DNA of 64,000 nt from Sneathiellales bacterium (GTDB taxonomy: Bacteria; Pseudomonadota; Alphaproteobacteria; JANQFL01), in assembly GCA_028277845.1 (NCBI GenBank), contig JANQFL010000117.1, positions 1 to 64,000 on the forward strand, given 5' to 3'. Shown one piece after another: positions 18,901 through 35,292 of the stretch. The position numbers and the translations under genes are program-made. Position 1 is the first letter of the stretch, and the number at the start of each line of letters is the position of its first letter. The notes below the pieces were generated by a model. The model had not been told where the DNA came from. It saw only the letters and a program-made list of their open reading frames with translations, and searched no databases.

Positions 18901-19655
18901 CGCGACGCCGTCTCGATGGTCACCAGGCTGCCGGCCGACGTCATGAGCAGACAGGGGCAGCCAAAGCCCTGCCCGGCGAGTTGGCTCTGCAAGTCGGCCA
19001 AATAGCCGGCCATGGCCGGCTGCACATAGGCATTGGCGCAGGTGGTCGACTGGCGTTCGTATTCGCGGATTTCCGGACAGACCTGGGACGACAGCGAAAC
19101 CGATACGCCGGGCAGCGCCTCGGCCAGCATCCGCGCGACGTGTTCTTCGTGGGCGGGATTGGCATAGGCGTGCAGCAATCCGATGGCGATGCTTTCGACG
19201 CCTGCCTGTTGCAGTTGCGGCACCAGGGCGGTAACGCTGGACCCGTCCAACGGCTGCAGCACGTCGCCCCGGTAGTCGATCCGCTCGAAGACCGGCAAGC
19301 GCAGCGCGCGCGGCACCAGCGGCGGCAGCCGGTCGGCGAAAATGTCGTATTGGTCGAAACGGTTTTCGTAGGCCATCTCGAGGGAATCGCGGTGGCCCTC
19401 GGTGGTGATCAGCGCTGTCACGGCCCCCTTGCGCTCGATCAGCGCGTTCGTGGCCAAAGTCGTGCCGTGCAGGATGAGGTCCACGTCCGCCGGCGCCGTG
19501 CCGCTGTCCGCCAATACCCGGCCGACACCGGCCATGAAACCGTCGGCCGGCCGCGCCGGTGTGGTCAGCACCTTCGCCGTGGTCTGCGCGCCGCCGCGAT
19601 CCAGCACGATGTCGGTAAAGGTGCCGCCGATATCGACGGCCAGGCGAACAGTCAT
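15993..19655 (-). CDS. Fused hydantoinase/oxoprolinase (HyuA-HyuB in one chain)
   Basis: This protein of 1220 residues joins a HyuA half (about 1-680; ATP-binding DIGGTFTDIV at the N-terminus, ILHGTTLATNALIERKGA, LSFDMGGTTAKICLI) with a HyuB half (about 695-1220; AIIRTAFSTTVREAGDLSAG, VFVTNDPWLGTGHL, Gly-rich LELPGGGGLGEV at the end). This is the layout of eukaryotic-type ATP-dependent 5-oxoprolinase; bacterial HyuA and HyuB are more often separate. It opens a cyclic amide with ATP hydrolysis. AAGGA upstream supports the start. 5-oxoproline is the default substrate, a hydantoin being the alternative. Confidence 0.92.
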   Translation of the reverse strand: MTVRLAVDIGGTFTDIVLDRGGAQTTAKVLTTPARPADGFMAGVGRVLADSGTAPADVDLILHGTTLATNALIERKGAVTALITTEGHRDSLEMAYENRFDQYDIFADRLPPLVPRALRLPVFERIDYRGDVLQPLDGSSVTALVPQLQQAGVESIAIGLLHAYANPAHEEHVARMLAEALPGVSVSLSSQVCPEIREYERQSTTCANAYVQPAMAGYLADLQSQLAGQGFGCPCLLMTSAGSLVTIETASRFPVRLVESGPAGGAILAAHMARALDEERVLSFDMGGTTAKICLIDDGEPVLSREFEVDRAHRFMKGSGMPVKIPVVEMVEIGAGGGSIAHVDALKRIHVGPESAGADPGPACYGQGGEKPTVTDANLLLGCIGADGFAGGQITLDTAASEAALQQHIGQALGLDTAAAAMGVIEIVDENMASAARVHAAERGKDLSGRTLIAFGGAAPLHATRLAEKLGIDRIVVPASAGVGSAVGFLLAPIAYEVVRSRYTRLDRMDAAAVATLFAEMQEEAASVVRLGAPDGVLSAQWHGYARYVGQGHEVKVEIPHDAFKDACDDILRQAFDRAYEAQFGLLIPDAEIEVLTWSVTVSAPSPEAAKQEAVQDGAVVSGDLTRDIRVPGSAELLKAVVYERTALSSGDCLTGPGVIQEAQTSTIVPPEWQARINTAGDLLLDRQAARPSVQVQTGIAGEIRQQVLWDRLISIVEEQAQAIIRTAFSTTVREAGDLSAGVFDPAGRMLAQAVTGTPGHVNAMAASVGYFLEKFPIGTMKPGDVFVTNDPWLGTGHLFDFTVVTPVFGGDRAVALFASTVHVVDIGGPGFSPDGGQVFEEGLCIPIMRLFDGGEANESVFDIVRANVREPAQVVGDLYSLTASNDVGARRLLDLMAEFGLNDLGFIGDHIIETSRAAMQDAIAKLPDGRYENTMTVDGYDRPVDLAAAMTVKDSRITVDYAGTSHVSPYGINVPLTYCQAYTCFGIRCFVGHDIPNNTGSLEPITVTAPEGSILNAPRPCAVNVRHVIGQMLPDVVMGCLDQALPGEIPAEGSSSLWNPMLSGGHGLTGDLPYGDATPFAVTIFHSGGTGARPGKDGLSATAYPSGVRNTPVEITESIAPVVFQRKEYRIGSGGEGRHTGGDGQIIEIAHGEDAPFAVFALFDRIDHPARGRAGGGPGDAGQVRLDDGTVLKGKGKQIVPAGRHLVLELPGGGGLGEV

Positions 19656-19796: not shown

Positions 19797-21308
19797 TTAC
19801 TCCGTAATACGGCCTTCCGTCTTCGGTGAGATATCACCGATTTTCGTAATGTAGTTCATCACCATTGTCGCCATCAGGGTGGCGCCTGATGCGTCGATGA
19901 CCTGCTCGCCCTTTTTCAGCGCGGCATATCCGTCCCCGCCGTTGGCGATGTAGTCGTTGGTCGCCAGGGTATAGAACTTGCCGGGATCGAGCATCGATCC
20001 GCCGACTTTGACTTCTGTGACACGTTTGCCACGGGGTTTGCTGCGGTCGAACTTGACCGTCATACCCGACACGTGCGGGAAGCGGCCCGCCGTGTCCTCG
20101 ACCCGGCTGACGCCGTTCTCCAAGGCCGCCAGCAGGTCGGCCCCTTTCAGCTTCATCATGATGGTGACGTTGCCGAACGGCAGTTCGGTCAGGATGTCCT
20201 TACGGGTCAAGGTGGTGCCGGGATCGTATGTGCGGTCGCCGCGAATGCCGCCGCCGTTGGTCAGTGCCACGTCGGCCCCGACGCCGTCCTTCAGGGCATC
20301 GGCGATCAGGTTGGCGAAATTGCTTTCCCGGGTCCGCACGGTCGCCCGGCGGCTGTCCAGTTCCACCGAGGTCTTGCCGACGGCCACCGACAACTGCTTG
20401 TCCAGCTCGGCTTCATATTCCTTCACCTTTGCGGCGATTTCGGCGTCGTGTTCAACACCGGCGGTGGCCAGGAAGCGCCATTGCGGCGCGATCGAGACAC
20501 GAATACCGCGGCGGGTTTCCCGTTTGTTGAAAGTGACGTCGGCCACCGCCAGATAGTGCGCGTCGTAGCCCGCCTTGAGGATCAGCGTGCCACCCTCGAA
20601 GAAGGTGATGGGATCGTGATCGTGGCCGCCGAGGATGACGTGAATGCCGCGCACGGTGCGGGCCAATTCACGGTCTTCGGCGATATCCAGGTGGGTGATG
20701 GCGATGATGGCATCGGCGCCGGCATCCTTCAGCGACTTCACAGCCGCCTTGGCGGTTTCCATCACCGGCTTGAAGACCACGCCGGATTCGGGACTGGACA
20801 GGTGCTCGGTTTCAGGCGTGAGCAACGCGAAGTATCCGACTTTCAGTTCGCCCAGATCCCGCATCACCGTCGCGGCCGCGCCGCCCCAGGGTTTGCCGGA
20901 CGTGTCCAGTACATTGGTCGCAATCCAGGTGAACTTGGACTGGCCCATGCGCTCATCCAGGATGTCGTTGCCGAAATCGAACTCGTGATTGCCCAAGCCA
21001 GCCAGATCGACACCGATGGCATTCATCATTTCGATCATCTGCCGGCCCTTGGTCAGGCCCGACATCACCGACGGTGAGATCAAGTCGCCACCGAGGGTCG
21101 TGACGTGATGCTTGGCGCCGGCCCGCTCCTGCTTGAGCAAGGTCATCAAGGGCGCCATGCCGCCTTTGCCGCGTTTAGGTGAAATCTCGTAAACGTCGTT
21201 GATATGCAATATGCGCAGTGTTTCGGATTGTGCCCATGCGGTGACGGGCAAACCGAAAGCCAGCACCAAGGCCAACGGTGCCGCGAGGCGTCGAATAAAA
21301 CGGATCAT
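19797..21308 (-). CDS. Periplasmic 5'-nucleotidase / bifunctional metallophosphatase
   Basis: The chain has 503 residues. A Sec signal peptide (RFIRRLAAPLALVLAFGLP...AWA, cut near residue 27) leads to a calcineurin-like metal domain with GGDLISPS, GNHEFDFG, ITHLDIAED and GGHDHDP, then a C-terminal 5'-nucleotidase substrate domain (LTNGGGIRGDRTYDPG, YTLATNDYIANGGDGY). The first metal motif reads NDVYEI, with Tyr where UshA has His. The start at 21308 has a textbook AGGAGG. It should strip phosphate from nucleotides in the periplasm, so it fits the nucleoside importer and catabolic genes that follow on the other strand. It could equally be a 2',3'-cyclic phosphodiesterase type. Confidence 0.9.
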   Translation of the reverse strand: MIRFIRRLAAPLALVLAFGLPVTAWAQSETLRILHINDVYEISPKRGKGGMAPLMTLLKQERAGAKHHVTTLGGDLISPSVMSGLTKGRQMIEMMNAIGVDLAGLGNHEFDFGNDILDERMGQSKFTWIATNVLDTSGKPWGGAAATVMRDLGELKVGYFALLTPETEHLSSPESGVVFKPVMETAKAAVKSLKDAGADAIIAITHLDIAEDRELARTVRGIHVILGGHDHDPITFFEGGTLILKAGYDAHYLAVADVTFNKRETRRGIRVSIAPQWRFLATAGVEHDAEIAAKVKEYEAELDKQLSVAVGKTSVELDSRRATVRTRESNFANLIADALKDGVGADVALTNGGGIRGDRTYDPGTTLTRKDILTELPFGNVTIMMKLKGADLLAALENGVSRVEDTAGRFPHVSGMTVKFDRSKPRGKRVTEVKVGGSMLDPGKFYTLATNDYIANGGDGYAALKKGEQVIDASGATLMATMVMNYITKIGDISPKTEGRITE

Positions 21309-21399
21309 GGCTGACCTCCTGTCATTGTTTTCTTGAATTCGTAAATCCAGAAACTTTGTTTTCATTCCAAGTCAAACTGGTGGCACTCATATTAAAGGC

Positions 21400-21434
21400 A
21401 AAGGCCGCCGGTGACGATGCCGCCGGCGGCCTTT
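21400..21434 (-). terminator. Strong terminator of the acid phosphatase gene
   Basis: Arms AAAGGCCGCCGG (21400-21411) and CCGGCGGCCTTT (21423-21434) pair perfectly over 12 bp around an 11-nt loop. On the minus strand a T-rich tail follows. It lies 56 bp after the stop of the HAD phosphatase and before the nucleotidase promoter region. Confidence 0.75.
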
Positions 21435-21489
21435 CTTCTCAATGGTCTATCGGGTCCGTATGACAGACCAGTGATAACGACCGCTCGAC

Positions 21490-22368
21490 TTATTCTCCGG
21501 ACCAGGCGTCAACGGAGTCGAGCTTCATTTTGCGCTTTTCATCGCCGGACAATTTGTAATTAAAGCCGTAGGGCGCGGATTCCCACGAACCGTATGTCGG
21601 ATTGGCGACCGCGATCCAGCTCTTGCCCCACTTGTCGGCATGACTGACCAGCGTGTTGTTGCGCTCCGTCAACGTCCCCTTGTAGTTGTCGACGAAGTCA
21701 CCGAAATTATCACCGAGCAGCAACAGAATGCGGTAGTCCTTGGCGACGTGCTCGCGGCGGTTGCCTTTTTTGGAACCCCACTCCTTGCGTTCGCGCTTCA
21801 ACAGAACCGTGTCCACATTGCCGCCCATGGGATATCCGTAGGCTTCCAGGTTCTTGCGGGTCGCCTCTTCCAGCTTTGTGTTGCGGTTCGAGACATAGAA
21901 CACCTTCACGCCCTTGCTGTCGGCGTATTTCGTGAACTCGAGCGAGCCGGGAATCGGCTTGGACGAGATGGTGTTGACGAACTTGGCCCAGGTCTTGGGA
22001 TGGAAGCTCTTGTCGTTCTTGACCATCCAGCCCTGATAGCCGGAATTGTCGAGCACTGTCTCGTCGACATCAAGAATGACGGCCGGAGGCAGGTTCTGGT
22101 AATTGCCGGTCTGCTCGGTCGCGGCGGTCCAGTTCTTGTCGGCCAGCGCCCGATCCAGCATGATGGTCGCTAGGCTGTAGGCCGTCAGCGCCGTCGCTTT
22201 GAACTCGACCGAAGTCTGGGTCCAAAGGGTGGCGTTGAGGTTGTCGTTTTGCGGCACCGCATCGGCCGCCGGCGCAGTTTGAATACCGGCCATTAGTGCA
22301 CACATAGCCGCAGCTGAAACAAGCCCGGTTTTCAATGATTTGGCGCTCGATTTGAAAGTCGATTGCAT
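21490..22368 (-). CDS. Secreted HAD acid phosphatase, class C / e(P4)-like 5'-nucleotidase
   Basis: The chain has 292 residues with a signal peptide (KSLKTGLVSAAAMCALMAGI...APAADA). The HAD motif I is AVILDVDETVLDNSGYQGWM, motif II lies in VFYVSNRN, and motif IV in ILLLLGDNFGDF; this set marks the class C (lipoprotein e(P4)) group. No clear lipobox is present, so it is probably free in the periplasm. Members dephosphorylate nucleoside monophosphates and NMN. GGGAGGTG supports the start at 22368. It diverges from the RutR-like TetR gene across three tandem operator-like boxes and adds a second nucleotide phosphatase next to the 5'-nucleotidase. Confidence 0.88.
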   Translation of the reverse strand: MQSTFKSSAKSLKTGLVSAAAMCALMAGIQTAPAADAVPQNDNLNATLWTQTSVEFKATALTAYSLATIMLDRALADKNWTAATEQTGNYQNLPPAVILDVDETVLDNSGYQGWMVKNDKSFHPKTWAKFVNTISSKPIPGSLEFTKYADSKGVKVFYVSNRNTKLEEATRKNLEAYGYPMGGNVDTVLLKRERKEWGSKKGNRREHVAKDYRILLLLGDNFGDFVDNYKGTLTERNNTLVSHADKWGKSWIAVANPTYGSWESAPYGFNYKLSGDEKRKMKLDSVDAWSGE

Positions 22369-22496: not shown

Positions 22497-22563
22497 TTGA
22501 CGCCCAAGTCAACTATCATTGACGAGCTAGTCAAATCGAATCCATACTTGATCAATTGGTCAG
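22497..22563. promoter_or_regulatory. Three tandem TTGAC-N6-GTCAA boxes (RutR-like operator)
   Basis: Box 1 is TTGAC-GCCCAA-GTCAA at 22497-22512, box 2 TTGAC-GAGCTA-GTCAA at 22519-22534, box 3 TTGAT-CAATTG-GTCAG at 22548-22563. Each is a 16-bp dyad; boxes 1 and 2 have perfect 5-bp arms. From memory the E. coli RutR site is TTGACCA-N2-TGGTCAA, the same frame. They lie in the divergent region between the acid phosphatase and a RutR-like TetR gene, 62 to 128 bp before the latter's start. Two or three dimers could bind side by side. Confidence 0.65.
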
Positions 22564-22624: not shown

Positions 22625-23263
22625 ATGAATACCCCGATGATCACCGTCCCGCAGACGCAGCGACCGGTGCGCGAGCGCATCCTGGAAGCGGCCGAAGCCG
22701 TATTTGCCGAATCGGGGTACGAAGGCGCGACGGTGACCGATATCGCGGCCCGCGCCGGGCTGCCGAAATCCAACCTGCACTACTATTTCGGTACCAAGGA
22801 AGCCTTGTACGAAGCCGTGTTATTCAACACCTTGTCCATGTGGGACGATGCGTTCCAGGTGCTGCGGGCCGAGCGCGATCCGGCCGAAGCACTGGCCGAG
22901 TGCATTCGCTTGAAGATGGACCTGTCCCGCAAGCGACCCAACGCCAACAAGGTGATGACCGGGGAAATGCTGCAAGGCGCCCCCCGGCTGAACACGTTTC
23001 TCAACACCACCTTGCGCGACCAGGTCGCCCAGTCCATGGCGGTCCTGAACCATTGGATCGAATTGGGCAAAATGGACGCCGTCAGCCCGATGCATGTGCT
23101 GCTTAGCATCTGGGCCATGACGCAGCAATACGCGGACTACAATCCGCCGATTAAGGCGTTGCTGGAAAAGGAAGAACTCGAAGAACGCGACTACGACGCG
23201 GCGACCGACGCGATCGTGCAACTGGTTTTACGGGGGTGCGGCGTCCCCCAGGCGACGGCATGA
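22625..23263 (+). CDS. TetR-family regulator resembling RutR
   Basis: The protein has 212 residues. The N-terminal helix-turn-helix (ATVTDIAARAGLPKSNLHYY) is followed by a C-terminal domain with EALYEAVLFNTLSMWDDAF, GEMLQGAPRL and a stretch ending WAMTQQYAD, which resembles E. coli RutR, the uracil/thymine-responsive regulator of pyrimidine and purine metabolism (recalled, not searched). It lies between the acid phosphatase and the nucleoside import and catabolic operon and follows three RutR-like dyads. I infer that it controls the phosphatase and itself, and possibly the importer, in response to a base or nucleoside. An alternative ATG lies at 22637. Confidence 0.85.
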   Translation: MNTPMITVPQTQRPVRERILEAAEAVFAESGYEGATVTDIAARAGLPKSNLHYYFGTKEALYEAVLFNTLSMWDDAFQVLRAERDPAEALAECIRLKMDLSRKRPNANKVMTGEMLQGAPRLNTFLNTTLRDQVAQSMAVLNHWIELGKMDAVSPMHVLLSIWAMTQQYADYNPPIKALLEKEELEERDYDAATDAIVQLVLRGCGVPQATA

Positions 23264-23308: not shown

Positions 23309-23357
23309 TTGACGGACCGGCCAGCGCTACTCATACTCGAACGGAAATGTCCGTTCG
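23309..23357 (+). promoter_or_regulatory. Promoter and operator of the nucleoside import/catabolism operon
   Basis: TTGACG (23309-23314) and CATACT (23332-23337) are 17 bp apart, a good sigma-70 promoter. Directly behind the -10 lies a perfect inverted repeat, CGAACGGA (23338-23345), AATG, TCCGTTCG (23350-23357), which would cover the transcription start: the classic site for a repressor. It differs from the TTGAC-N6-GTCAA boxes, so a second regulator may act here. The binding-protein gene starts 42 bp further on. Confidence 0.65.
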
Positions 23358-23399: not shown

Positions 23400-24377
23400 A
23401 TGAAGCGTACGATCCTAGCCGCGGTTGCGGCGACAGCCATTGCCACTACGGCATCGGCGGCTGATTTCAAGCCGGCCGTCGTCTTCGACATGGGCGGCAA
23501 GTTCGACAAGTCGTTCAACGAAGCCGCCTATAACGGCGCCGAGAAATTCAAGAAGGACACCGGTATCGCCTACCGGGAGTTCGAAGTCACCAACGTATCG
23601 CAGCGCGAGCAGGCCCTGCGCAACATGGCCCGCCGCGGCGCCGGCATCGTCGTCGCCATGGGCTTCGCCCAGGCCGCGGCCGTCGAAAAGGTGGCCAAGG
23701 AGTATCCCGACGTGAAGTTCACCCTCATCGACATGGTGGTCGATCTGCCGAACGTGCAGTCGGTGGTGTTCAAGGAACATGAAGGCTCGTTCCTGGTCGG
23801 CATGGCCGCCGCCATGGCTTCCAAGACCGGCAAGGTCGGTTTCGTCGGCGGCATGGACATTCCGCTGATCCGCAAATTCGCGCTGGGTTATGTGGAAGGC
23901 GCCAAGTACGTCAACGGTAACGTCGAGGTGTTCCAGAACATGACCGGCACAACCCCGGCCGCCTGGAACGACCCGACCAAGGGCGGTGAGTTGGCCCGCA
24001 GCCAGTTCGACCGTGGCGCCGATGTGGTCTACGCGGCCGCGGGCGGCACCGGCATCGGTGTCTACCAGGCCGCCAAGGACAGCGGCAAGCTGGCCATCGG
24101 CGTGGATAGCAACCAGAACTACCTGCATCCGGGCACCATGCTAACGTCGATGATCAAGCGCGTCGATGTGGCCGTGTACGACGCCTTCAAGTCGGCCAAG
24201 GACGGCACCTGGAAGGGCGGCATCAAGGTTCTCGGCCTGGCCGAGGAAGGTGTCGGCTACTCCATCGACGAACACAACCGTTCGCTGATCTCCGCCGACA
24301 TGGAGGCCAAGCTTGAGAAAGCGCGGTCGGAAATCATCGCCGGTAAGATCAAGGTTACCGACTACATGATGAAGTAG
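23400..24377 (+). CDS. BMP-family nucleoside-binding protein of an ABC transporter
   Basis: The chain has 325 residues and a clear signal peptide (KRTILAAVAATAIATTASA, cut before ADFK). The mature part is a BMP/PnrA/Med-type periplasmic binding protein: VFDMGGKFDKSFNEAAYNG at the front, then IGVDSNQNYLHPGTMLTSMI. PnrA-like proteins bind purine nucleosides. GGGAG supports the start. It heads the operon of the ABC transporter, cdd, pnp, deoC, aldehyde dehydrogenase, deoA and deoB, which makes nucleosides the likely ligand. No lipobox is visible, so it is free in the periplasm. Confidence 0.92.
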   Translation: MKRTILAAVAATAIATTASAADFKPAVVFDMGGKFDKSFNEAAYNGAEKFKKDTGIAYREFEVTNVSQREQALRNMARRGAGIVVAMGFAQAAAVEKVAKEYPDVKFTLIDMVVDLPNVQSVVFKEHEGSFLVGMAAAMASKTGKVGFVGGMDIPLIRKFALGYVEGAKYVNGNVEVFQNMTGTTPAAWNDPTKGGELARSQFDRGADVVYAAAGGTGIGVYQAAKDSGKLAIGVDSNQNYLHPGTMLTSMIKRVDVAVYDAFKSAKDGTWKGGIKVLGLAEEGVGYSIDEHNRSLISADMEAKLEKARSEIIAGKIKVTDYMMK

Positions 24378-24394
24378 TTTGACGGCTCCCGTTG

Positions 24395-24420
24395 CCCGGG
24401 TTCCCCAAGTGGAACCCGGG
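24395..24420 (+). other. Intercistronic stem-loop after the binding-protein gene
   Basis: CCCGGGTTCC (24395-24404) and GGAACCCGGG (24411-24420) form a perfect 10-bp stem with a 6-nt loop, 17 bp after the stop codon. Such hairpins between a binding-protein gene and its ABC genes usually protect the 5' message or partly stop transcription, so that more binding protein is made. No long T run follows directly. Confidence 0.7.
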
Positions 24421-24458
24421 TTGCGGCCGTTTTCATACATTTCCAAGATCGGTCGGTT

Positions 24459-26036
24459 ATGACCCAGGCGCAATCCGGTCCTGCCGCCGCAGGGAATTTG
24501 CCCCCTGCCCTGGCGCTCCACGGCATCAACAAACGGTTCAGTACGGTGCACGCCAACAAGGACGTTTCCTTGTCGGTGGCCAAGGGCACCATTCACGGCA
24601 TCATCGGCGAAAACGGTGCCGGCAAGTCCACCTTGATGAGCATCGTCTACGGCTACTACCAAGCCGACAGCGGTACCATCGAAGTCGATGGCGAGCGGGT
24701 TTCCATCAAGGAGCCGCAGGATGCTCTGGGTGTCGGCATCGGCATGGTGCATCAGCACTTCATGCTCGTGAACACGTTCACGGTGCTGGAGAACGTGGTG
24801 CTTGGAGTCGAGGGCGGCATGACGCTCGGCACCGGCATGGACGCCGCGCGCAAGGAACTGGAGCACCTGGAAAAGGAATACAGCCTGGAGGTCGACCCAG
24901 ACGCCATTATCGGCGACTTGCCGGTCGGTCTGCAGCAGCGGGTCGAAATCCTCAAGGCACTCTACCGTGGCGCCGAGACACTGGTGCTCGACGAACCCAC
25001 CGGCGTGCTGACTCCGCAGGAAGTCGACCATCTTTTCCGCATCCTGCATGCCCTTCGCGACCAGGGTAAGACGATCATCCTGATTACCCATAAACTGCGT
25101 GAAATCATGGCCTTGACCGACAATGTCACTGTGATGCGTCAAGGCGAAGTGGTGGCCAACGTCAAGACCGCCGACACCAGCCGCGAGCAACTGGCCGAAC
25201 TGATGGTCGGCCGCTCGGTGCTTTTGCGCGTCGAGAAGACGCCAGCCCAGCCGACCGATGTATGCCTCGCCGTCAAGGGCCTCAACGTGATCGACGGCAA
25301 CGGCGTGCGCCGGGTCAAGGACGTGGATTTCGACGTGCGCTACGGCGAGATTGTCGGTATCGCCGGTGTATCCGGCAACGGCCAATCGGAATTGCTCGAA
25401 GCCCTGTCGGGCATTCGCCCCGTCGACACCGGCGACATCCTGTTCAAGGGTGAGAACCTGGCCGCCATGGACGGTCATCTCAGCCGCTGGGTCCGAGAGC
25501 ATGGCATGGGCCACGTGCCGGAGGACCGCCAGCACATGGGGCTGGTGCTGGATTTCCATGCGTTCGAGGACACCATCCTCGGCTACCATCATGACCCGCT
25601 CTACAACCGGCACGGCCTGTTGAACTACAATGCCATCACCGGCCAGTGCGCCGATTGGATGCAGGGCTACGACGTGCGTCCCGCCGTACCGGAACAGAAG
25701 GCCGGCGATTTCTCAGGCGGCAATCAGCAGAAAATTGTGCTGGCACGCGAGATGGAGCGCGATCCGGAACTGCTGCTGGTCGGACAACCGACCCGCGGCG
25801 TCGATATCGGCGCCATCGAATTCATCCACAAGCGGCTGATCGCCATGCGCGATGCCGGCAAGGCCATCCTGCTGGTCTCGGTCGAACTGGACGAGATCAT
25901 GTCGCTGGCCGATCGCATCCTGGTCATGTTCGACGGCATGATCGTCGGCGAGATGCCACAGGGTGAGGCGACGGAACAGCAACTCGGTCTGTTGATGGCC
26001 GGTGAAAGCACCAACGTGCAGCAGGGCGCGTCATGA
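24459..26036 (+). CDS. Nucleoside ABC transporter ATPase with two ATPase domains (NupA/RbsA type)
   Basis: The 525 residues contain two ATPase domains. The first has Walker A GENGAGKST, signature VGLQQRVEIL and Walker B LVLDEPTGVLTPQE; the second has a degenerate Walker A (GVSGNGQSE), signature FSGGNQQKIVLAREM and VGQPTRGVDIG. This is the sugar/nucleoside (CUT2-like) tandem ATPase layout. It overlaps the first permease gene by 4 nt. With the BMP-type binding protein and two BPD_transp_2 permeases it forms an importer of the NupABC/BmpDEFG kind. Substrate specificity is inferred from the downstream catabolic genes. Confidence 0.95.
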   Translation: MTQAQSGPAAAGNLPPALALHGINKRFSTVHANKDVSLSVAKGTIHGIIGENGAGKSTLMSIVYGYYQADSGTIEVDGERVSIKEPQDALGVGIGMVHQHFMLVNTFTVLENVVLGVEGGMTLGTGMDAARKELEHLEKEYSLEVDPDAIIGDLPVGLQQRVEILKALYRGAETLVLDEPTGVLTPQEVDHLFRILHALRDQGKTIILITHKLREIMALTDNVTVMRQGEVVANVKTADTSREQLAELMVGRSVLLRVEKTPAQPTDVCLAVKGLNVIDGNGVRRVKDVDFDVRYGEIVGIAGVSGNGQSELLEALSGIRPVDTGDILFKGENLAAMDGHLSRWVREHGMGHVPEDRQHMGLVLDFHAFEDTILGYHHDPLYNRHGLLNYNAITGQCADWMQGYDVRPAVPEQKAGDFSGGNQQKIVLAREMERDPELLLVGQPTRGVDIGAIEFIHKRLIAMRDAGKAILLVSVELDEIMSLADRILVMFDGMIVGEMPQGEATEQQLGLLMAGESTNVQQGAS

Positions 26037-27151
26037 GCGCCGCCAACAAAGCTCCGCGCTGGGTCACCCTGGCATTGGTGCCGGCCGTCAATCTGATGGC
26101 CGCCTTCTTCATCGCCGGGCTGATCATCACCGCAATCGGTGAAAACCCCTTCGCCGCCCTCGAGGTCCTGGTCTACGGCGCCTTCGTATTTCCGGAGGCG
26201 CTGGGATTCACGCTCTATTACACCACCAACTTCGTCTTCACCGGCCTGGCCGTCGCCATGGCCTTTCACTGCCGGCTGTTCAATATCGGCGGCGAGGGCC
26301 AGGCCTATATCGGCGGCCTCGGCGTCGGTCTCGTCTGCCTGTACATGGGCGGCTGGCCGTTCCCGATCGTTCTGATCGTCGCCATCATGGCCGGGGCGCT
26401 CTTCGGCGGGGCATGGGCCTTCATTCCGGCCTACCTGCAGGCCAAGCGCGGCAGCCACGTGGTCATCACAACGATCATGTTCAACTTTATTGCCGCGGCG
26501 CTGATGACCTACATCATGGTCGAAATCCTGATCAAGCCGGGGCAGCAGTCGCCGGAAAGCCGGGAATTCGACCCTGGGACCTGGCTGCCTTTCGTGCATG
26601 AGATGCTCGGTGCAATCGGTATCGAAGTGGCCCGCTCGCCGCTCAATCTGTCCTTCCTGATCGCTCTCGTTTGCTGCGTGCTGGTTTGGGTATTCATCTG
26701 GCACACACGCTGGGGATACGAAATCAGGACCGTCGGCCACAACGAATCCGCCGCCGTCTATGCCGGCATTTCGCCGTCGCGCAATATCATCATCGCCATG
26801 TGTATCTCGGGGGCCCTGGCCGGCATGGTCGGCATCAACGAGATCATGGGCGTGCAGCACCGGCTGATCCTCGACTTCACCGGCGGTTACGGTTTCGTCG
26901 GTATCGCCGTGGCTCTGATGGGCCGCAACCATCCCATCGGTATCGTGCTGGCGGCGCTGCTGTTCGGTGCGCTCTATCAGGGCGGCAGCGAACTGGCCTT
27001 CGAGATGCCCAACATTACCCGTCACATGGTGGTGGTCATCCAGGGTCTGGTCATCCTGTTCAGCGGCGCGCTGGAACACTTGTTCCGGCCGCGCATCGAG
27101 GCGCTGTTCATCCGTAAGCCGGACGCCGTACCGGCGCAGGCGGCGGAGTAG
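26033..27151 (+). CDS. Nucleoside ABC transporter permease, subunit 1
   Basis: This BPD_transp_2 inner-membrane permease of 372 residues has about ten hydrophobic segments. Typical features are the loop FNIGGEGQAYIGGLG in the first third, AYLQAKRGSHVVITTIMFNFIA in the middle, and GYGFVGIAVALMGRNHPIGI near the end, as in NupB-like permeases of the BMP systems. It overlaps the ATPase gene by ATGA and is followed after 4 bp by the second permease; the two probably form a heterodimer. Confidence 0.94.
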   Translation: MSAANKAPRWVTLALVPAVNLMAAFFIAGLIITAIGENPFAALEVLVYGAFVFPEALGFTLYYTTNFVFTGLAVAMAFHCRLFNIGGEGQAYIGGLGVGLVCLYMGGWPFPIVLIVAIMAGALFGGAWAFIPAYLQAKRGSHVVITTIMFNFIAAALMTYIMVEILIKPGQQSPESREFDPGTWLPFVHEMLGAIGIEVARSPLNLSFLIALVCCVLVWVFIWHTRWGYEIRTVGHNESAAVYAGISPSRNIIIAMCISGALAGMVGINEIMGVQHRLILDFTGGYGFVGIAVALMGRNHPIGIVLAALLFGALYQGGSELAFEMPNITRHMVVVIQGLVILFSGALEHLFRPRIEALFIRKPDAVPAQAAE

Positions 27152-27155
27152 GGTC

Positions 27156-28130
27156 ATGGGCGAGTTTTTCACCATCTTCATCCTGACCCTGGACGCCACG
27201 TTGCGTGTCGCCACCCCGCTGGTCTTGGCCGCCCTCGCCGGCATGTTCTCGGAACGCTCCGGCGTCATCGACATCGGGCTGGAGGGCAAGATGCTCGGCG
27301 CCGCCTTCTCGGCCGCCGCCACGGCCGCCGTCACCGGTTCGCCCTGGCTCGGCCTGATGGCCGGCATCGTCACGTCCATGTGCCTGTCCATGGTGCATGC
27401 CTTCGCCTGCGTCACCCACCACGGCAACCAGGTGGTTTCGGGCATGGCCCTGAACATCGCCGTCGCCGGTCTCGGTCCGACGCTGGGTCTGGCCTGGTTC
27501 CACCAGGGCGGCCAGACGCCCATGCTCGGCCATTCGTCGCGTTTCACCGCCATCGACTGGCCGTTCGCCAAGGCCCTGGCGGACGTACCGCTGATCGGTC
27601 ACATCTATTCCGAGATTTTCAGCGGCCACAACATCATCGTCTACTTCGCCATGGTGGCCGTACCGGTGGCGGCCTATGTGCTGTACCGCACCCGGTTCGG
27701 ATTGCGCCTGCGCGCCGTCGGCGAAAGCCCGGAGGCGGTCGACACGGCCGGCATTTCCGTCGCCGGCATGCGCTACCGCGCCTTGCTGATAACCGGATTC
27801 CTGTGCGGTGTAGCCGGCACTTATCTGTCGACGGCCCACAGCGCCGGCTTCATCCGCGACATGACCGCGGGCAAAGGGTATCTGGCATTGGCGGCGCTGA
27901 TCTTTGGCAAGTGGAAGCCGGTGCCGACCATGCTGGCCTGCCTGCTGTTCGCCTTTGCCGATGCGGTGCAAATCCGCTTGCAGGGTGTCGAGCTGCCGGT
28001 GATCGGCACCATCCCGGTGCAATTCATCCAGGCTCTGCCCTATGTCCTGACGGTGCTGCTGCTGGCCGGTTTCGTCGGCAAGGCCATCGCGCCCAAGGCT
28101 ATCGGCGAACCCTACATCAAGGAACGATGA
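27156..28130 (+). CDS. Nucleoside ABC transporter permease, subunit 2
   Basis: The 324 residues are the second BPD_transp_2 permease: LAGMFSERSGVIDIGLEGKM near the N-terminus and GKGYLALAALIFGKWKP in the last third match NupC-like partners. The ATG at 27156 is 4 bp after the first permease; an upstream in-frame extension would run inside that gene and is rejected. The stop overlaps the cdd start (ATGA), so transporter and first catabolic enzyme are translationally coupled. Confidence 0.94.
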   Translation: MGEFFTIFILTLDATLRVATPLVLAALAGMFSERSGVIDIGLEGKMLGAAFSAAATAAVTGSPWLGLMAGIVTSMCLSMVHAFACVTHHGNQVVSGMALNIAVAGLGPTLGLAWFHQGGQTPMLGHSSRFTAIDWPFAKALADVPLIGHIYSEIFSGHNIIVYFAMVAVPVAAYVLYRTRFGLRLRAVGESPEAVDTAGISVAGMRYRALLITGFLCGVAGTYLSTAHSAGFIRDMTAGKGYLALAALIFGKWKPVPTMLACLLFAFADAVQIRLQGVELPVIGTIPVQFIQALPYVLTVLLLAGFVGKAIAPKAIGEPYIKER

Positions 28131-28531
28131 GTACGCTCGACGACATGATCGCCTTGGCCCGTGCGGCCCAGGCGCGGGCTTACGCCCCCTATTCCAAATT
28201 CAGGGTGGGCGCCTGCGTGCGCACCGAGTCCGGTGAATTGTATGCCGGCTGCAACGTGGAAAACGCCGCCTACCCGCAGGGCCAGTGCGCCGAGGCCTCT
28301 GCCATCGGCGCCATGGTGCACGGCGGCGAGACATCCATCGTCGAGGTGGTCGTCATCGGCGACGGCGACGGACTGTGTACGCCCTGTGGTGGCTGCCGCC
28401 AGCGCCTGAACGAATTCGCCACCGGCGACACGCCGGTGCATGTGTGCGGGCCCGAAGGCCTGCGCAAGACCATCCCGCTGGGCGAGTTGATACCCTACGC
28501 CTTCGGCCCGAAGAACCTGGACACGCCATGA
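28127..28531 (+). CDS. cdd: Cytidine deaminase
   Basis: The 134 residues form a short tetrameric-type cytidine deaminase: zinc ligands Cys in GQCAEASAIG (Glu is the proton shuttle) and the pair in CTPCGGCRQRLNEF, with YSKFRVGACVRTESG and AGCNVENAAYP for the substrate. It converts (deoxy)cytidine to (deoxy)uridine, which the phosphorylase at 32750 can then cleave. The gene overlaps the permease and PNP genes by 4 nt each. Confidence 0.96.
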   Translation: MSTLDDMIALARAAQARAYAPYSKFRVGACVRTESGELYAGCNVENAAYPQGQCAEASAIGAMVHGGETSIVEVVVIGDGDGLCTPCGGCRQRLNEFATGDTPVHVCGPEGLRKTIPLGELIPYAFGPKNLDTP

Positions 28532-29355
28532 CCGACGCGGCTTTCACCTGCGCTGAGAAGATCACCAACGCCTTGAACGGCCTCAAACCGAAGGTCGGTT
28601 TGGTACTCGGCTCGGGACTCGGCGATTTCGTCGACCAGCTCGAGGACGCCCGGGCGTTCGACTACACCGACCTGCCCGGTTTCCCGCAGCCCGGCGTCGA
28701 AGGCCATTCCGGCCGCCTGGTCGCCGGCCGCGTCAACGGCACCGACGTCGCCTGCCTGCAGGGTCGTGTCCACGTCTACGAAGGCCAACCCTTTCAAGCC
28801 ATGCAGACACCGATCCGCACGCTCAAGCAGATCGGCTGCGATACCCTGCTGGTGACCAATGCCGCCGGCAGCCTGATGACGGACGTCACCCCCGGTGATC
28901 TGATGATGATCATCGATCACATCAACCTGCTCGGCGGCAATCCGCTGATGGGCGACAACGACGAGCGCTTCGGCCCGCGCTTCATCGGTATGGACGGCGC
29001 CTATGACGCCGACCTGCAAGCAGCCATGCGCAACGCCGCCAAGGATCTGGATATCACCCTGTGGGAAGGCGTGTACCTCGCCTACACCGGACCCAGCTTC
29101 GAAACGCCGGCCGAAATTCGCGCCTTCCGCACCTGGGGCGCCGACGCCGTCGGCATGTCGACCGCGCCCGAGGTGATCCTCGCCCGCCATTGCGGCCTGC
29201 GGGTGGCCGGGCTGTCCATTCTGACCAATTTGGCCGCCGGCCTGTCCGACATGGAACTCAGCCACGACCAGACCCTGCATTACGCCGCCCTGGCGGCCAA
29301 GAACGTCGAGCGTTTGCTGCATGCCTTTCTCGGGACATTGAACCATGACCAGTGA
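28528..29355 (+). CDS. Purine nucleoside phosphorylase (trimeric class)
   Basis: The 275 residues match the trimeric PNP family (PunA/XapA-like) rather than hexameric DeoD: VLGSGLGDFVDQLE, GFPQPGVEGHSGRLVAG, LQGRVHVYEGQPFQAMQTP, TNAAGSL, AYTGPSFETPAEIRAF and GADAVGMSTAPEVI, where the Met-Ser-Thr segment lines the active site. It splits purine (deoxy)nucleosides with phosphate into base and (deoxy)ribose-1-phosphate, the substrate of DeoB. The gene overlaps cdd by 4 nt and deoC by 11 nt. Confidence 0.95.
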   Translation: MTDAAFTCAEKITNALNGLKPKVGLVLGSGLGDFVDQLEDARAFDYTDLPGFPQPGVEGHSGRLVAGRVNGTDVACLQGRVHVYEGQPFQAMQTPIRTLKQIGCDTLLVTNAAGSLMTDVTPGDLMMIIDHINLLGGNPLMGDNDERFGPRFIGMDGAYDADLQAAMRNAAKDLDITLWEGVYLAYTGPSFETPAEIRAFRTWGADAVGMSTAPEVILARHCGLRVAGLSILTNLAAGLSDMELSHDQTLHYAALAAKNVERLLHAFLGTLNHDQ

Positions 29356-30352
29356 CTCCCTACTCGCGATGGGCCCGACCCGGCGGTCCACATTGAAGCA
29401 CCTGGAAATGTGTAATCCCGGTACGGCCTTGCAGTTGGACTGGCTGCGCGACGTACGGGTCAATCGCAGCGCCGTCGAGCGCCGCGCCGCCACCATGGGC
29501 ACCCGCCGCTCGGTCAAGAAGGCCTGGCAGGCGGCCTGGTTGTTGAAGGCCGTCACCTGCATCGACCTGACGACGTTGAGCGGCGACGACACACCGGGCA
29601 AAGTGCGGCGGATGTGCGCCAAGGCCCGTCAGCCCGTGCGGCAGGATCTGCTCGATACCCTTGGTGTCGGCGACAAGGGCCTGACCGTCGGCGCCGTGTG
29701 CGTTTATCACAATATGATCCAAACCGCCGTCGACGCGCTCAAGGGCAGCGACATTCCGGTGGCCGCCGTGTCGACCGGTTTTCCGGCCGGCCTGTCGCCG
29801 CTTGAGACCCGCCTGCGCGAGATCGAACTGTCGGTCGCCGCCGGCGCCAAGGAAATCGACATCGTCATCGACCGCGGCCTTGTGCTGACCGGCCAGTGGG
29901 AGGAGATGTACGACCAGGTGCGCGCCTTCAAGGACGCATGCGGCGACGCGCATCTCAAGACCATCCTCGGCACCGGCGACCTCAACACCTTGCGCAATGT
30001 GGGCAAGGCCAGCCTGGTCTGCATGATGGCCGGGGCCGACTTCATCAAGACGTCGACGGGCAAGGAATCGGTCAACGCCACCCTGCCCGTCAGCCTGGTG
30101 ATGATCCGCGCCATCCGCGAGTACCGCGAACGCACGGGCCACGTGGTCGGCTTCAAGCCGGCCGGCGGCATCAGCACGGCCAAGGCGTCGCTCGAATACC
30201 TCGTCATGATGAAGGAGGAACTGGGCCGGCCGTGGATGGAGCCCAACCTGTTCCGCTTCGGCGCGTCCAGCCTGCTCGGCGACATCGAACGCCAGCTCGA
30301 ACACCACGTGACCGGCCGCTACTCGGCCAACAACCGCCATCCCATGGCGTAG
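29345..30352 (+). CDS. deoC: Deoxyribose-phosphate aldolase
   Basis: At 335 residues it belongs to the long DeoC subgroup that resembles the animal DERA enzyme; E. coli DeoC has ~259. The Schiff-base lysine lies in FIKTSTGKE and the second active lysine in GFKPAGGIS; VGAVCVYHNMI and KEIDIVIDRG are further family motifs. It cleaves 2-deoxyribose-5-phosphate to glyceraldehyde-3-phosphate and acetaldehyde. The acetaldehyde is a plausible substrate for the ALDH16-type enzyme encoded 29 bp downstream. Confidence 0.95.
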   Translation: MTSDSLLAMGPTRRSTLKHLEMCNPGTALQLDWLRDVRVNRSAVERRAATMGTRRSVKKAWQAAWLLKAVTCIDLTTLSGDDTPGKVRRMCAKARQPVRQDLLDTLGVGDKGLTVGAVCVYHNMIQTAVDALKGSDIPVAAVSTGFPAGLSPLETRLREIELSVAAGAKEIDIVIDRGLVLTGQWEEMYDQVRAFKDACGDAHLKTILGTGDLNTLRNVGKASLVCMMAGADFIKTSTGKESVNATLPVSLVMIRAIREYRERTGHVVGFKPAGGISTAKASLEYLVMMKEELGRPWMEPNLFRFGASSLLGDIERQLEHHVTGRYSANNRHPMA

Positions 30353-30381
30353 TTTGAACCCCGCGAATCAGGAGTGACGAC

Positions 30382-32760
30382 GTGAGCGTCGCAGAAATAC
30401 TCGATTCCATGGACTACGGTCCGGCCCCCGAAAGCGCCGATCAGGCCGAGGACTGGCTTGACGGCCACCAGCGCAAGTTCGGCATTTTCATCGACGGCCA
30501 GTGGCGCGCGCCCAAAGGCCGCAAGCGGTTCGAAACCCTCAATCCCGCCACCAGCCAGCCGCTGGCCCACATCGCCCAGGCCAGCAACGCCGACGTCGAT
30601 GCCGCTGTCGCCGCGGCCCGCAAGGCGCTGCCGAAATGGGCCAAATTGGGGACGCACGGCCGTGCCCGTATCCTTTATGCCCTGGCCCGGCTGCTGCAGA
30701 AACACGCCCGCCTGTTCGCCGTCGTGGAAACCATGGACAACGGCAAGCCGATCCGCGAAACCCGCGACATCGACATTCCCCTGGCTATTCGCCATTTCTA
30801 TCACCACGCCGGCTGGGCCCAGATGCTGGACGACGAGTTTCCCGGCATGGAGGCGCACGGCGTGGTCGGCCAGATCATTCCGTGGAACTTCCCGCTGCTC
30901 ATGCTCGCGTGGAAGGTTGCCCCCGCCCTCGCCGCCGGCAACACGGTGGTCTTGAAACCGGCCGAGTTCACCAGCCTGACCACCCTACTGTTCGCCGAGA
31001 TCTGCGAGGAAGCCGGATTGCCGGCCGGTGTGCTGAATATCGTCACCGGCGACGGCCGCGTCGGCGAACTGATCGTGCGCCATGACGACGTCAACAAGAT
31101 CGCCTTCACCGGCTCGACCGACGTCGGCCGTCTGATCCGCGAGGCCACCGCCGGCAGCGGCAAGGCCCTGACCCTGGAACTGGGCGGCAAGTCGCCGCTG
31201 ATCGTGTTCGAGGACGCCGACCTGGACAGCGCCGTCGAGGGCGTGGTCGACGGCATCTGGTTCAACCAGGGCCAGGTATGCTGCGCTGGGTCGCGCCTTT
31301 TGGTGCAGGAAAACGTCGCCGACCGCTTCATCGCCAAACTGAAGGCACGGATGGAAACCCTGCGGGTCGGCGATCCGCTGGACAAGGCGGTCGACATCGG
31401 CGCCATCATCGCGCCGGTGCAGCTGGACCGCATCAAGGCCCTGGTCGACAGCGGCGTGCAGGACGGCGCCGAACTGTGGCAGCCGAGCTGGGCCTGCCCC
31501 AAGGACGGCTGGTTCTACCCGCCGACCCTGTTCACCAACGTCTCCCCTGCCGCGACCATCGCCCAGGAAGAAATCTTCGGACCCGTGCTGTCAGCCATGA
31601 CGTTCCGCACCCCGTCCGAGGCCGTCGGCCTTGCCAACAACACCCGTTACGGCCTGGCCGCCAGCATCTGGAGCGAAAGTCTCAACCTCGCCCTCGACAT
31701 CGCGCCGAAACTGAAGGCCGGCGTGGTCTGGGTCAATGGCACCAACATGTTCGATGCCGCCTGCGGCTTCGGCGGTTACCGTGAGTCCGGCTTTGGACGG
31801 GAAGGCGGCAAGGAAGGCATGGTGGAATACCTGCGCCCCGCCTTCCGCGCCAAACTGCCGCTGTATGCCGAAAAGAAACCGGCGCCCGAGATCAAACCGC
31901 CTGCGGCCGATACCCACGTCGACCGTACCGCCAAGATGTATGTGGGCGGCAAGCAGGCCCGGCCCGATTCCGGTTACAGCCGGCCCGTGCTGGCGCCCAA
32001 CGGACGCCTGATCGCCGAAGTGGGCGAGGGCAACCGCAAGGACATCCGCAACGCCGTCGAGGCCGCCAGGAAAGCGGCTTCGTGGAGCCTGTCCACGGGC
32101 CACCTGCGGGCCCAGATCCTTTACTACGTCGCCGAGAACCTGGACGCTCGCCGCGAGGAATTCATCGCCCGCATCCGCGCGATGACCGGCGCCCGCTCCG
32201 CCGCCGCGGCCAAGGAAGTCGAGACGTCGGTGCAACGGCTGTTCACCTATGCGGCCTGGGCCGACAAGTTCGACGCCGCCGTGCACAACCCGCCCATGCG
32301 CGGGGTTACGCTGGCCATGAACGAGCCGCTCGGCATCATCGGCATGACCTGCCCGGACGAACTGCCGCTACTCGGTTTCGTCTCGCTGGTGGCGCCGGCC
32401 ATCGCCATGGGCAACTGCGTCATCGCCGTGCCATCGGAGCCCCATCCCTTGTCGGCGACGGATTTCTATCAGGTGCTCGACACGTCCGATGTGCCGGGCG
32501 GCGTGGTCAACATCGTCACCGGTGACAGTGCGGCGCTGATTTCGGTTCTGGCCCAGCACGACGAAGTCGATGCCGTCTGGTGTGTCGGTGACGCGCAGAC
32601 CGGCACCGACGTGGAGCGCCTATCGACGGGTAACCTGAAACGCACCTGGGTCAATCACGGCCGCCGCCCGGACTGGTACGACAACCGGCAGGCCGAGGGC
32701 CGCGCGTTCCTGGCCCGGGCGACCCAGGTCAAGAACATCTGGGTGCCCTATGGCGAATGA
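30382..32760 (+). CDS. Two-domain aldehyde dehydrogenase of the ALDH16 type
   Basis: The 792 residues hold two ALDH domains. Domain 1 (~30-490) is complete: PWNFPLLMLAWK, Glu266 in LELGGKSP and catalytic Cys300 in FNQGQVCCAGSR. Domain 2 (~525-790) starts KMYVGGKQARPDSGYSRPV, keeps the NAD-domain outline but has no catalytic Cys and ends early. This is the ALDH16 layout, in which the second domain is a pseudoenzyme. Because deoC precedes it, oxidation of acetaldehyde to acetate is a likely role (inference). The stop overlaps the start of deoA by 11 nt. The family is secure, the in vivo substrate is not. Confidence 0.88.
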   Translation: MSVAEILDSMDYGPAPESADQAEDWLDGHQRKFGIFIDGQWRAPKGRKRFETLNPATSQPLAHIAQASNADVDAAVAAARKALPKWAKLGTHGRARILYALARLLQKHARLFAVVETMDNGKPIRETRDIDIPLAIRHFYHHAGWAQMLDDEFPGMEAHGVVGQIIPWNFPLLMLAWKVAPALAAGNTVVLKPAEFTSLTTLLFAEICEEAGLPAGVLNIVTGDGRVGELIVRHDDVNKIAFTGSTDVGRLIREATAGSGKALTLELGGKSPLIVFEDADLDSAVEGVVDGIWFNQGQVCCAGSRLLVQENVADRFIAKLKARMETLRVGDPLDKAVDIGAIIAPVQLDRIKALVDSGVQDGAELWQPSWACPKDGWFYPPTLFTNVSPAATIAQEEIFGPVLSAMTFRTPSEAVGLANNTRYGLAASIWSESLNLALDIAPKLKAGVVWVNGTNMFDAACGFGGYRESGFGREGGKEGMVEYLRPAFRAKLPLYAEKKPAPEIKPPAADTHVDRTAKMYVGGKQARPDSGYSRPVLAPNGRLIAEVGEGNRKDIRNAVEAARKAASWSLSTGHLRAQILYYVAENLDARREEFIARIRAMTGARSAAAAKEVETSVQRLFTYAAWADKFDAAVHNPPMRGVTLAMNEPLGIIGMTCPDELPLLGFVSLVAPAIAMGNCVIAVPSEPHPLSATDFYQVLDTSDVPGGVVNIVTGDSAALISVLAQHDEVDAVWCVGDAQTGTDVERLSTGNLKRTWVNHGRRPDWYDNRQAEGRAFLARATQVKNIWVPYGE

Positions 32761-34087
32761 GCAGGCCTTCTTCCCGCAGGAGATCATCCGGCGCAAACGC
32801 GACGGTGCGGTCCTGTCGGACGACGAGATTGCGTTTCTGGTCGGCGGCATCACCGACGATTCGGTGACCGAAGGCCAGGCTGCCGCGTTCGCCATGGCAG
32901 TGTTCTTTCAGGGTATGGAACCGGCCGAATGTGCCAGCCTGACCAAGGCCATGACCCATTCCGGCACCGTGCTCGACTGGTCGGGCGCGGACCTGGGCGG
33001 CCCGGTTCTCGACAAACATTCCACCGGCGGCGTCGGCGACAAGGTCAGCCTGATGCTGGCGCCGATCCTCGCCGCCTGCGGCGCCTATGTGCCGATGATC
33101 TCCGGCCGGGGTCTCGGCCATACGGGTGGCACGCTCGACAAGCTGGATGCCGTTCCCGGTTACGACACCAGCCCGGGCCAGGATACGTTCGTACGGACGG
33201 TCAAGGACGTGGGATGCGCCATCATCGGACAGACCGCCGATCTCGCGCCCGCCGACCGGAGACTGTATGCCATCCGAGATGTCACGGCCACGGTCGAATC
33301 CATCCCCCTGATCACCGCCAGCATCCTGTCCAAGAAACTGGCGGCCGGACTGGACGGTCTCGTGATGGACGTCAAGTTCGGTAACGGGTCCTTTGCCGGT
33401 AGTCGCGACAACGCCGTGGCGCTGGCGCGTTCCATCGTCGATGTGGCCGGCGGCGCCGGCCTGCCCTGCTCCGCCCTGCTGACCGACATGAACCAGATCC
33501 TGGGTCATACGGCGGGTAATGCCCTGGAAGTACGTGAAGCCATTGACTACCTGACCGGCGAACACCGCGACCCGCGACTGCACAAAGTGACCGTCGCTTT
33601 GTGCGCCGAACTGCTTCGGTTGGGCGGCCTGACGGCTTCGGACGAAGCGGCGGCCGCGCAGATCGAGGATGCTCTGCAAACCGGCGTGGCGGCTGAAATT
33701 TTCGGCCGGATGGTCCATGCCTTGGGCGGCCCGACCGATTTGATGGACGATCCTGGAAGGCATTTGCCGAACGCACCTGTCGTGCGTACGGTTCTCCCGC
33801 CGGAGGCGGGATATGTCGCCGAGATGGATACGCGAGCCCTCGGCGTCGCCGTCATGGGACTGGGCGGCGGACGACGCGCCGCCGGCGATACCATCGATTA
33901 CAGGGTCGGCCTCTCGCGCATGGTGTCTTTGGGAAATGCGGTCTCCGCCGATCAACCGGTCTGCACTGTGCACGCCCGCAATGACGATGAGGCGGAACAG
34001 GCGGTCGAAGCCATATTGTCTGCCGTGTCGGTCGGACCCGACGCCGCGGCCGACATGCCTGTGATTCAAGACCGTATCGCGGCATAA
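32750..34087 (+). CDS. deoA: Thymidine phosphorylase
   Basis: The 445 residues have the full thymidine phosphorylase signature: [13 protein letters not shown] at the front, [19 protein letters not shown] for phosphate binding, [19 protein letters not shown], and [14 protein letters not shown]. It splits thymidine, deoxyuridine and possibly uridine to base and (deoxy)ribose-1-phosphate. It acts after Cdd and before DeoB. Length matches E. coli DeoA (440). Confidence 0.96.
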
Positions 34088-34101
34088 CCGGAATTGGACA
34101 C

Positions 34102-35292
34102 ATGCCCCGTGCCTTCATATTGGTGATGGATTCGTTCGGTATCGGCGGCGCTCCCGACGCGGCCAACTTTGGCGACGAAGGATCAGACACTTTTGGCCAT
34201 ATCGCCGCGGCGTGCTCCGCGGGGCGTGCCGACCTGGATGGAGTACGGTCGGGTCCCTTGATCATTCCCAACCTTTTACGACTGGGTCTGGGCGCTGCGT
34301 CCGAACTGAGTACCGGGATCTGGCCGGACGGTGTTGACCGGGTTGATCCGGCTGGGTGCGTCTACGGCGCCGCGCAAGAACGCAGCCTGGGCAAGGACAC
34401 ACCCAGCGGCCACTGGGAAATGGCCGGGCTGCCGGTGGATTACGACTGGGGCTATTTTCCCAAAACCGAGCCGTGCTTTCCCGAAGCGCTGACGAATGCC
34501 CTGATTGCGGAGGCCGGTTTGCCGGGACTGCTCGGTAACAAGCATGCATCGGGGACGGTAATCATCAACGAACTGGGCGATGAACATGTCCGATCGGGCA
34601 TGCCGATCGCCTACACCTCCGCCGATTCCGTTCTCCAGATCGCTGCCCACGAAGACATTTTTGGCCTGGAACGGCTCTACGAGCTATGCGCCATCGCCCG
34701 GCGCTTGGTCGACGACTATCAGATCGGGCGGGTGATCGCCCGGCCGTTTGTCGGCTCGGACGGCCAATACACCCGCACCGCCAATCGAAAGGATCTGGCC
34801 ACGCCCCCACACGGTCCGACTCTACTGGACCAAGTGCTGAACGACGGCGGCCATGTCTTTTCGATCGGTAAAATCGGCGACATCTTCGCCCATGTCTCCA
34901 CCGGCACCGAGATCAAGGCCGATGGCAACGATGCCCTGATGGCCGCCACCATTGACGCCGCCAGATCCGCACCCGACCGGGCCCTCGTCCTGACCAACTT
35001 TGTCGACTTCGACACGCTTTACGGCCACCGCCGGGATGTCGCCGGCTATGCCGCCGCCGTCGAAGCCTTCGACCGCATGCTGCCCGAATTCGAAGCCGTC
35101 ATGAAACCCGGCGACCTGGCGGTCATTACCGCCGATCATGGCTGCGATCCCACCTGGCCGGGCAGCGATCATACGCGCGAGAATGTTCCGGTCCTGATGT
35201 TCGGGAGTTACACGGAAGATTGGTCAAATGACGTGTACGACGGTTTTACCGTGATCGCCGACAGATTGTCGGCCGCGTTGCAGCTTGGCTGA
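34102..35292 (+). CDS. deoB: Phosphopentomutase
   Basis: The 396 residues match DeoB of the alkaline-phosphatase superfamily: [16 protein letters not shown] with the first metal Asp, [11 protein letters not shown] for the phospho-Thr loop, and [20 protein letters not shown] near the end for the second metal site. It converts (deoxy)ribose-1-phosphate to the 5-phosphate for DeoC or the pentose phosphate pathway. It is the last gene of the salvage operon; its stop is 9 bp from the stop of the converging hypothetical gene, with no obvious terminator hairpin. Confidence 0.96.

Follow-up and report, generated by a model that had tools for sequence, protein, structure and literature searches.

Three tandem dyad boxes beside a RutR paralogue and genes for nucleotide and nucleoside scavenging

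The boxes and the genes around them

Three 16-bp boxes lie in a 256-bp divergent gap between the start of a gene for a P4-type 5'-nucleotidase (position 22368) and the start of the gene for P0001, a TetR-family regulator (22625). The whole stretch of DNA analyzed, 64,000 nucleotides in length, is called the window below. The features relevant to this report are as follows; scores refer to the RutR motif described in the next section.

19797..21308, - strand: UshA-like 5'-nucleotidase, at most a candidate target
21397..21440, - strand: strong hairpin with a T-rich tail, a likely terminator separating the P4 gene from the UshA-like gene (-31.5 kcal/mol, z -4.1)
21490..22368, - strand: 5'-nucleotidase, lipoprotein e(P4) family (TIGR01533, 225.9 bits, cut-off 216.05); start 22368 was chosen, behind GGGAGG
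22497-22512, no strand assigned: box 1, TTGACGCCCAAGTCAA, perfect outer arms, score 1.3
22519-22534, no strand assigned: box 2, TTGACGAGCTAGTCAA, 22 bp from box 1, score 11.1
22548-22563, no strand assigned: box 3, TTGATCAATTGGTCAG, 29 bp from box 2, score 20.7
22625..23263, + strand: P0001, TetR-family regulator of 212 aa, a RutR paralogue with a conserved recognition helix and an altered uracil pocket
23309..23324, no strand assigned: possible weak fourth box, TTGACGGACCGGCCAG, on the -35 of a promoter-like site before the transporter gene, score 4.7 (reached in 4 of 1000 gap shuffles)
23400..28130, + strand: BMP/PnrA-type nucleoside ABC transporter (binding protein, ATPase, two permeases)
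28127..35292, + strand: nucleoside breakdown genes (cytidine deaminase, purine-nucleoside phosphorylase, deoC, aldehyde dehydrogenase, thymidine phosphorylase (deoA), phosphopentomutase (deoB))

Beside deoC in the nucleoside operon, a 792-aa protein (30382-32760) contains two aldehyde dehydrogenase stretches. At 15993-19655, hydantoinase A and B subunits are fused in a single 1220-aa reading frame.

The sequences and positions of the boxes, starting at 22497, 22519 and 22548, agree with those of an initial annotation made from the DNA alone. The perfect arms reported there for two boxes are those of boxes 1 and 2, which are the window's two exact matches to the proposed motif, TTGAC-N6-GTCAA; up to two mismatches yield 38 matches. 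Among 100 dinucleotide-shuffled versions of the window, none had an exact pair at most 60 bp apart, and triples inside 55 bp, with up to two mismatches allowed, averaged 0.01 (largest value 1). A motif-blind test gave a weaker result, with four repeated perfect dyads of any sequence (at most 100 bp apart) against a shuffle mean of 0.5 and a largest value of 3 in 20 shuffles. Genome-wide (5.39 Mb), the motif has eight exact matches, boxes 1 and 2 among them, and by our own arithmetic eight random genome places would yield about 0.001 pairs within 100 bp. The box cluster is not due to chance.

The motif performs poorly once it is loosened. The genome scan suggested in the initial annotation gave, with one mismatch, 250 sites compared with 258 for a reversed control; this lack of enrichment makes the loosened motif worthless as a genome-wide marker. 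Among the six other exact sites, those on contigs C6, C52 and C101 fall within open reading frames judged to be coding, another is inside a reading frame of 102 aa that is unlikely to be a gene (C51), and the site on C15 is a canonical RutR box before a second BMP transporter. On contig C93 (L029 7415-7430), a TRAP transporter and a MerR-type regulator flank an exact TTGACGTTTACGTCAA, which resembles MerR-family (LiuR-like) operators rather than those of RutR.

TTGAC is also a -35 hexamer, which is a point against reading the boxes as operators. In the direction of the regulator, the left arm of box 2 is the -35 of a promoter-like sequence, TTGACG followed after 18 bp by CATACT (22543-22548), so box 3 would cover the regulator's transcription start. 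The P4 nucleotidase gene also has a possible -35, formed on the - strand by box 1's right arm (TTGACT, 18 bp, TTTAAT); it was recognized by eye and missed by the promoter scanner. The TTGACG and CATACT pair, with a 17-bp spacer, also precedes the transporter gene. Because the scanner reported 2 promoter-like sites in 2.25 kb compared with 1.0 expected from shuffles, promoter-like sites alone are weak evidence. Conceivably, the dyads are nothing but chance overlaps of the -35 hexamers of divergent promoters: two of the arms could serve as -35 elements, for which there are plausible -10 elements, TTGACG recurs at the transporter promoter, and the loosened motif is not enriched in the genome. However, the remaining arms have no promoter role, the exact pair is absent from all 100 shuffles, and box 3 lies outside the -35 elements and matches a motif derived from other genomes. 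We regard such overlaps as a very improbable explanation. If the boxes are operators instead, steric repression of the promoters that they overlap would be a natural inference.

The RutR motif and its occurrence at orthologous genes

To evaluate the proposed resemblance of the boxes to RutR sites, we used a motif trained on the upstream 360 bp of 109 related regulator genes, accepting dyads with at most one mismatch. Such dyads are present at 64 of the 109 RutR-family promoters, with 75 sites in all, whereas 20 rounds of shuffling gave a mean of 0.65 loci (largest 2). The alphaproteobacterial RutR-family motif derived from these 64 promoters is YTGACCRNNYGGTCAR. Because training sites were gathered with the same dyad arms, the arms are partly built into the motif, but positions 6 and 7 are not. 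Position 6 is C in 95% of the training half-sites (n = 150) and T in the remainder, with G in 0 of 150. In boxes 1 and 2, one half has G at this position and the other half has T.

No place in the window scores higher on the RutR motif than box 3. Its score of 20.7 lies between the 5% and 25% quantiles of the training sites (15.9 and 22.8), and none of 1000 shuffled versions of the gap reached it. Also, box 3 shares 15 of 16 positions with a box, TTGACCAATTGGTCAG, in locus L044. Box 2 ranks second (11.1), slightly below the lowest training site, and box 1 ranks ninth (1.3). The promoter of P0001 thus carries one box that fits the RutR motif and two poor fits, and the resemblance to RutR sites claimed for all three stands for box 3, while the two boxes with perfect arms are the least RutR-like. 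In the genome, the canonical motif with one mismatch is not enriched (65 sites compared with 113 for the control). It has five exact sites, of which three are at RutR-type targets (the C15 transporter, and C34 twice); those on C31 and C42 have no obvious adjoining pyrimidine gene.

The centre-to-centre distances of 22 and 29 bp are as annotated, and correspond to 2.10 and 2.76 turns at 10.5 bp per turn. Box 3 is therefore rotated by about a quarter turn relative to boxes 1 and 2, and the proposal that dimers bind on the same face applies to boxes 1 and 2 and not to box 3. At least two sites with a score of at least 10 were found at 19 of 156 related loci examined. The 20 spacings at these RutR-family promoters are 22 (six cases), 23 (three), 33 (six), 34 (two) and 41, 144 and 303 bp (one each). 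The distance between boxes 1 and 2 (22 bp) thus recurs in the family, and a 29-bp spacing is absent from these 20.

The initial annotation also linked the boxes to two nucleotide phosphatases and a nucleoside operon. We searched for boxes (score at least 8) in about 350 bp upstream of orthologues in other Alphaproteobacteria; for the BMP gene, these came from the best 30 loci (29 others and the window's own) of 86 genomes with a match. Canonical RutR boxes precede 6 of the 29 BMP orthologues examined (shuffle mean 0.13, largest 1) and 3 of 19 P4 orthologues (shuffle mean 0.17, largest 1). At a score of at least 16, four BMP and two P4 orthologues have a box. In G264 and G300, the BMP gene and the P4 gene each have a box. 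Three of the six box-bearing BMP orthologues come from one genus, and 23 of 29 BMP and 16 of 19 P4 orthologues have no box at a score of at least 8. Among the 19 other genomes that have a P4 orthologue, six (G043, G065, G186, G279, G280 and G357) have the P4 and BMP genes on one strand and separated by about 7-9 kb.

The boxes at orthologous genes extend the evidence linking RutR-type control with nucleotide dephosphorylation and nucleoside uptake beyond this window. The proposed link is thereby supported for the P4 gene and the transporter. It is not supported for the second phosphatase: the likely terminator hairpin precedes the UshA-like gene, and the 25 top-scoring motif sites of the window include none upstream of it. 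The UshA-like gene is therefore not clearly part of the putative box-controlled set.

A conserved recognition helix and an altered pocket in P0001

The resemblance of P0001 to RutR was borne out. The E. coli RutR structure 3loc is its best match by sequence (E = 1.8e-34), and the top eight PDB chains by fold are all RutR (TM 0.83-0.89, compared with 0.70 for the next fold; model pLDDT 90.7). TetR_C_3 (Pfam PF08362) is detected at 144.9 bits, compared with a cut-off of 25. P0001 scores below the NCBIfam RutR cut-offs (TIGR03613, 164.5 versus 368; PRK15008, 147 versus 230). A second protein of the same genome, encoded on contig C34 and 44% identical to P0001, is likewise below both cut-offs (193.6 and 176.1), and the cut-offs therefore seem too strict for this class.

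This second protein, rather than P0001, is the genome's RutR. In our tree, the C34 protein groups with other alphaproteobacterial RutR proteins on an end branch of 0.33, and P0001 has a branch of 1.36 and no supported partner; the tree is a quick one with long branches, 5 of the 109 translations were left out because of stops, and the placement of P0001 is unsure. Genes for rut or reductive pyrimidine (pre/pyd) functions adjoin the C34 copy and not P0001. The C34 cluster (L024) includes dihydropyrimidinase, amidase, a transporter and, by our own reading, genes resembling preT and preA, and it has three canonical boxes scoring 25.6, 25.6 and 17.4. Two of the C34 boxes are 115 bp apart, between the amidase and dihydropyrimidinase genes. 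Sequence comparison and gene neighbourhood thus identify the C34 protein as the RutR orthologue and P0001 as a divergent, long-branch paralogue. Contig C15 (L026 4835-4850) carries a box, TTGACCGATTGGTCAA, with a score of 27.2, about 70 bp before the second BMP transporter, whose binding protein is 29% identical to that of the window. This C15 operon is a likely target of the C34 RutR. RutR and nucleoside uptake are paired independently in Zavarzinia-type loci (L051, L054, L066, L121 and L128), where an intact-pocket RutR adjoins a distantly related BMP transporter (28-29% identity).

We found no close orthologue of P0001 in 384 other genomes drawn from the class, in a collection of 84,980 species (403 stretches matched, 209 relatives, best 80 used) or in 397 other genomes drawn from the phylum; its own family and its own order are each represented by its own genome alone. 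The top identity to P0001 among the matches listed is 55%. Of 493 plasmid records, one has its best place at 60-80% identity. This record is outside the best 10, and the match is probably short, because ranking was by coverage times identity. Among the papers listed by our literature searches, no title or abstract opening describes a P0001-type paralogue or P4 or BMP targets.

The recognition helix of P0001 is unchanged, with K, N, H, Y, Y, F, T and K as in 102-104 of 104 relatives. Given this conservation, the off-motif boxes 1 and 2 would be either weak sites or sites of a drifted P0001 motif. It might be proposed that box 3 is the sole functional operator, bound by the C34 RutR, and that boxes 1 and 2 serve a drifted P0001 or neither protein. 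Of the three boxes, box 3 alone agrees with the canonical motif and with the C34 boxes, and P4 and BMP genes in other genomes have canonical boxes, with no regulator gene found next to BMP there. However, P0001 has the same recognition helix as RutR, the 22 bp from box 1 to box 2 is a distance typical of the RutR family, and regulators beside divergent operators are usually autoregulated. We consider a role for box 3 alone unlikely.

The ligand pocket is a different matter. As described in PMC10891134, RutR contacts uracil through W77 and W167, which stack on it, through Q171, through Y97 by way of a water molecule, and through Q179 of the other monomer. P0001 retains three of these five contacts (W73, W163 and Q167), and has C93 in place of Y97 and P175 in place of Q179. 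Among 104 related proteins (the 109 loci minus 5 with stops), the Y97 position is Y in 104 and the Q179 position is Q in 103. Adding 47 loci from the phylum search gives 154 rows, of which 140 have the complete W-Y-W-Q-Q quintet, and the C and P pair occurs only in P0001. Other changes in its ligand domain are S112N and A116T, at invariant positions, and F115M and F164L, at 90% positions. The pocket of the C34 RutR is intact.

Sensing of pyrimidine bases by the neighbouring regulator, as initially annotated, is therefore doubtful, with two of five uracil contacts gone (Y97C and Q179P). This loss indicates that P0001 most likely answers to another ligand; judging from its residues, it most likely reads RutR boxes yet senses something else. 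That the ligand is a nucleoside is a guess that suits the neighbouring genes. P0001 could nonetheless be a plain pyrimidine-base sensor for which W73, W163 and Q167 suffice and C93 and P175 are tolerated. The three retained contacts include both stacking tryptophans, and single pocket positions vary in some RutR-family proteins (14 of 154 rows, including P0001, differ from WYWQQ). Moreover, Y97 touches uracil via water alone (PMC10891134). Against this explanation, Y97 and Q179 are conserved in 104 and 103 of 104 relatives and their double loss is unique among 154 rows, the invariant residues S112 and A116 are changed as well, and the genome already has an intact-pocket RutR. We judge a plain base sensor somewhat unlikely.

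Second RutR copies in other Proteobacteria (L230-L232, L235, L236 and L241, and also L238 and L245) have L or I in place of W77. Their recognition helix, PNVYYYF, is changed, and they represent further RutR paralogues with altered pockets.

Proposed regulation and relation to known systems

The locus combines a RutR paralogue, two off-consensus boxes and one canonical box at genes predicted to scavenge nucleotides and nucleosides. We propose that the boxes are probably operators of P0001, which would be a RutR paralogue that regulates itself, responds to a new ligand and controls nucleotide and nucleoside scavenging. In this model, P0001 would bind the boxes, occlude the promoters of its own gene and of the divergent P4 gene and thereby repress the two genes, and would probably also repress the downstream operon for nucleoside transport and catabolism. 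Box 3, which is canonical, could be read by both P0001 and the C34 RutR, while boxes 1 and 2 would be weaker or specialized. A ligand (for example, a nucleoside) would free the DNA, and extracellular dephosphorylation, nucleoside uptake and nucleoside breakdown would be switched on.

A more elaborate version is that a RutR duplicate kept its helix while its ligand changed from a base to a nucleoside. The duplicate would compete with the true RutR for box 3, so that two signals, free base and nucleoside, act at one promoter, and boxes 1 and 2 would be private to the duplicate. We hold this version to be rather improbable.

With E. coli RutR (PDB 3loc, 4jyk and 4xk4; PMC10891134), P0001 has in common the TetR_C_3 family, the fold and the DNA-reading helix, and in both cases palindromes of 16 bp stand before the regulator gene and before targets, which are putative for P0001. 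In contrast to E. coli RutR, P0001 lacks two uracil contacts and a rut operon, adjoins a P4 nucleotidase gene and a nucleoside operon, and is under the NCBIfam RutR cut-offs, and boxes 1 and 2 deviate at position 6. A comparative genomics study of the alphaproteobacterial RutR regulon reports RutR in 68 genomes with 273 sites and taxon-specific changes of the motif (PMC5343134). Tandem boxes and the motif rebuilt here are like those of that regulon, and the C34 regulator with its preT, preA and dihydropyrimidinase cluster looks like a standard member of it. P0001, unlike these, is a second, divergent copy.

The analysis points to a natural case in which a regulator apparently has acquired a new ligand with the same DNA reading, while a parent-type regulator is still in the genome. 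In several Alphaproteobacteria, boxes at orthologous genes connect the RutR family with nucleoside uptake and with the extracellular dephosphorylation of nucleotides. The operators of QacR-type TetR proteins are similar in that a palindrome at the start of a promoter allows steric repression, and differ in sequence, ligand class and targets. QacR-type sites are compared with RutR sites in a figure legend of PMC10891134.
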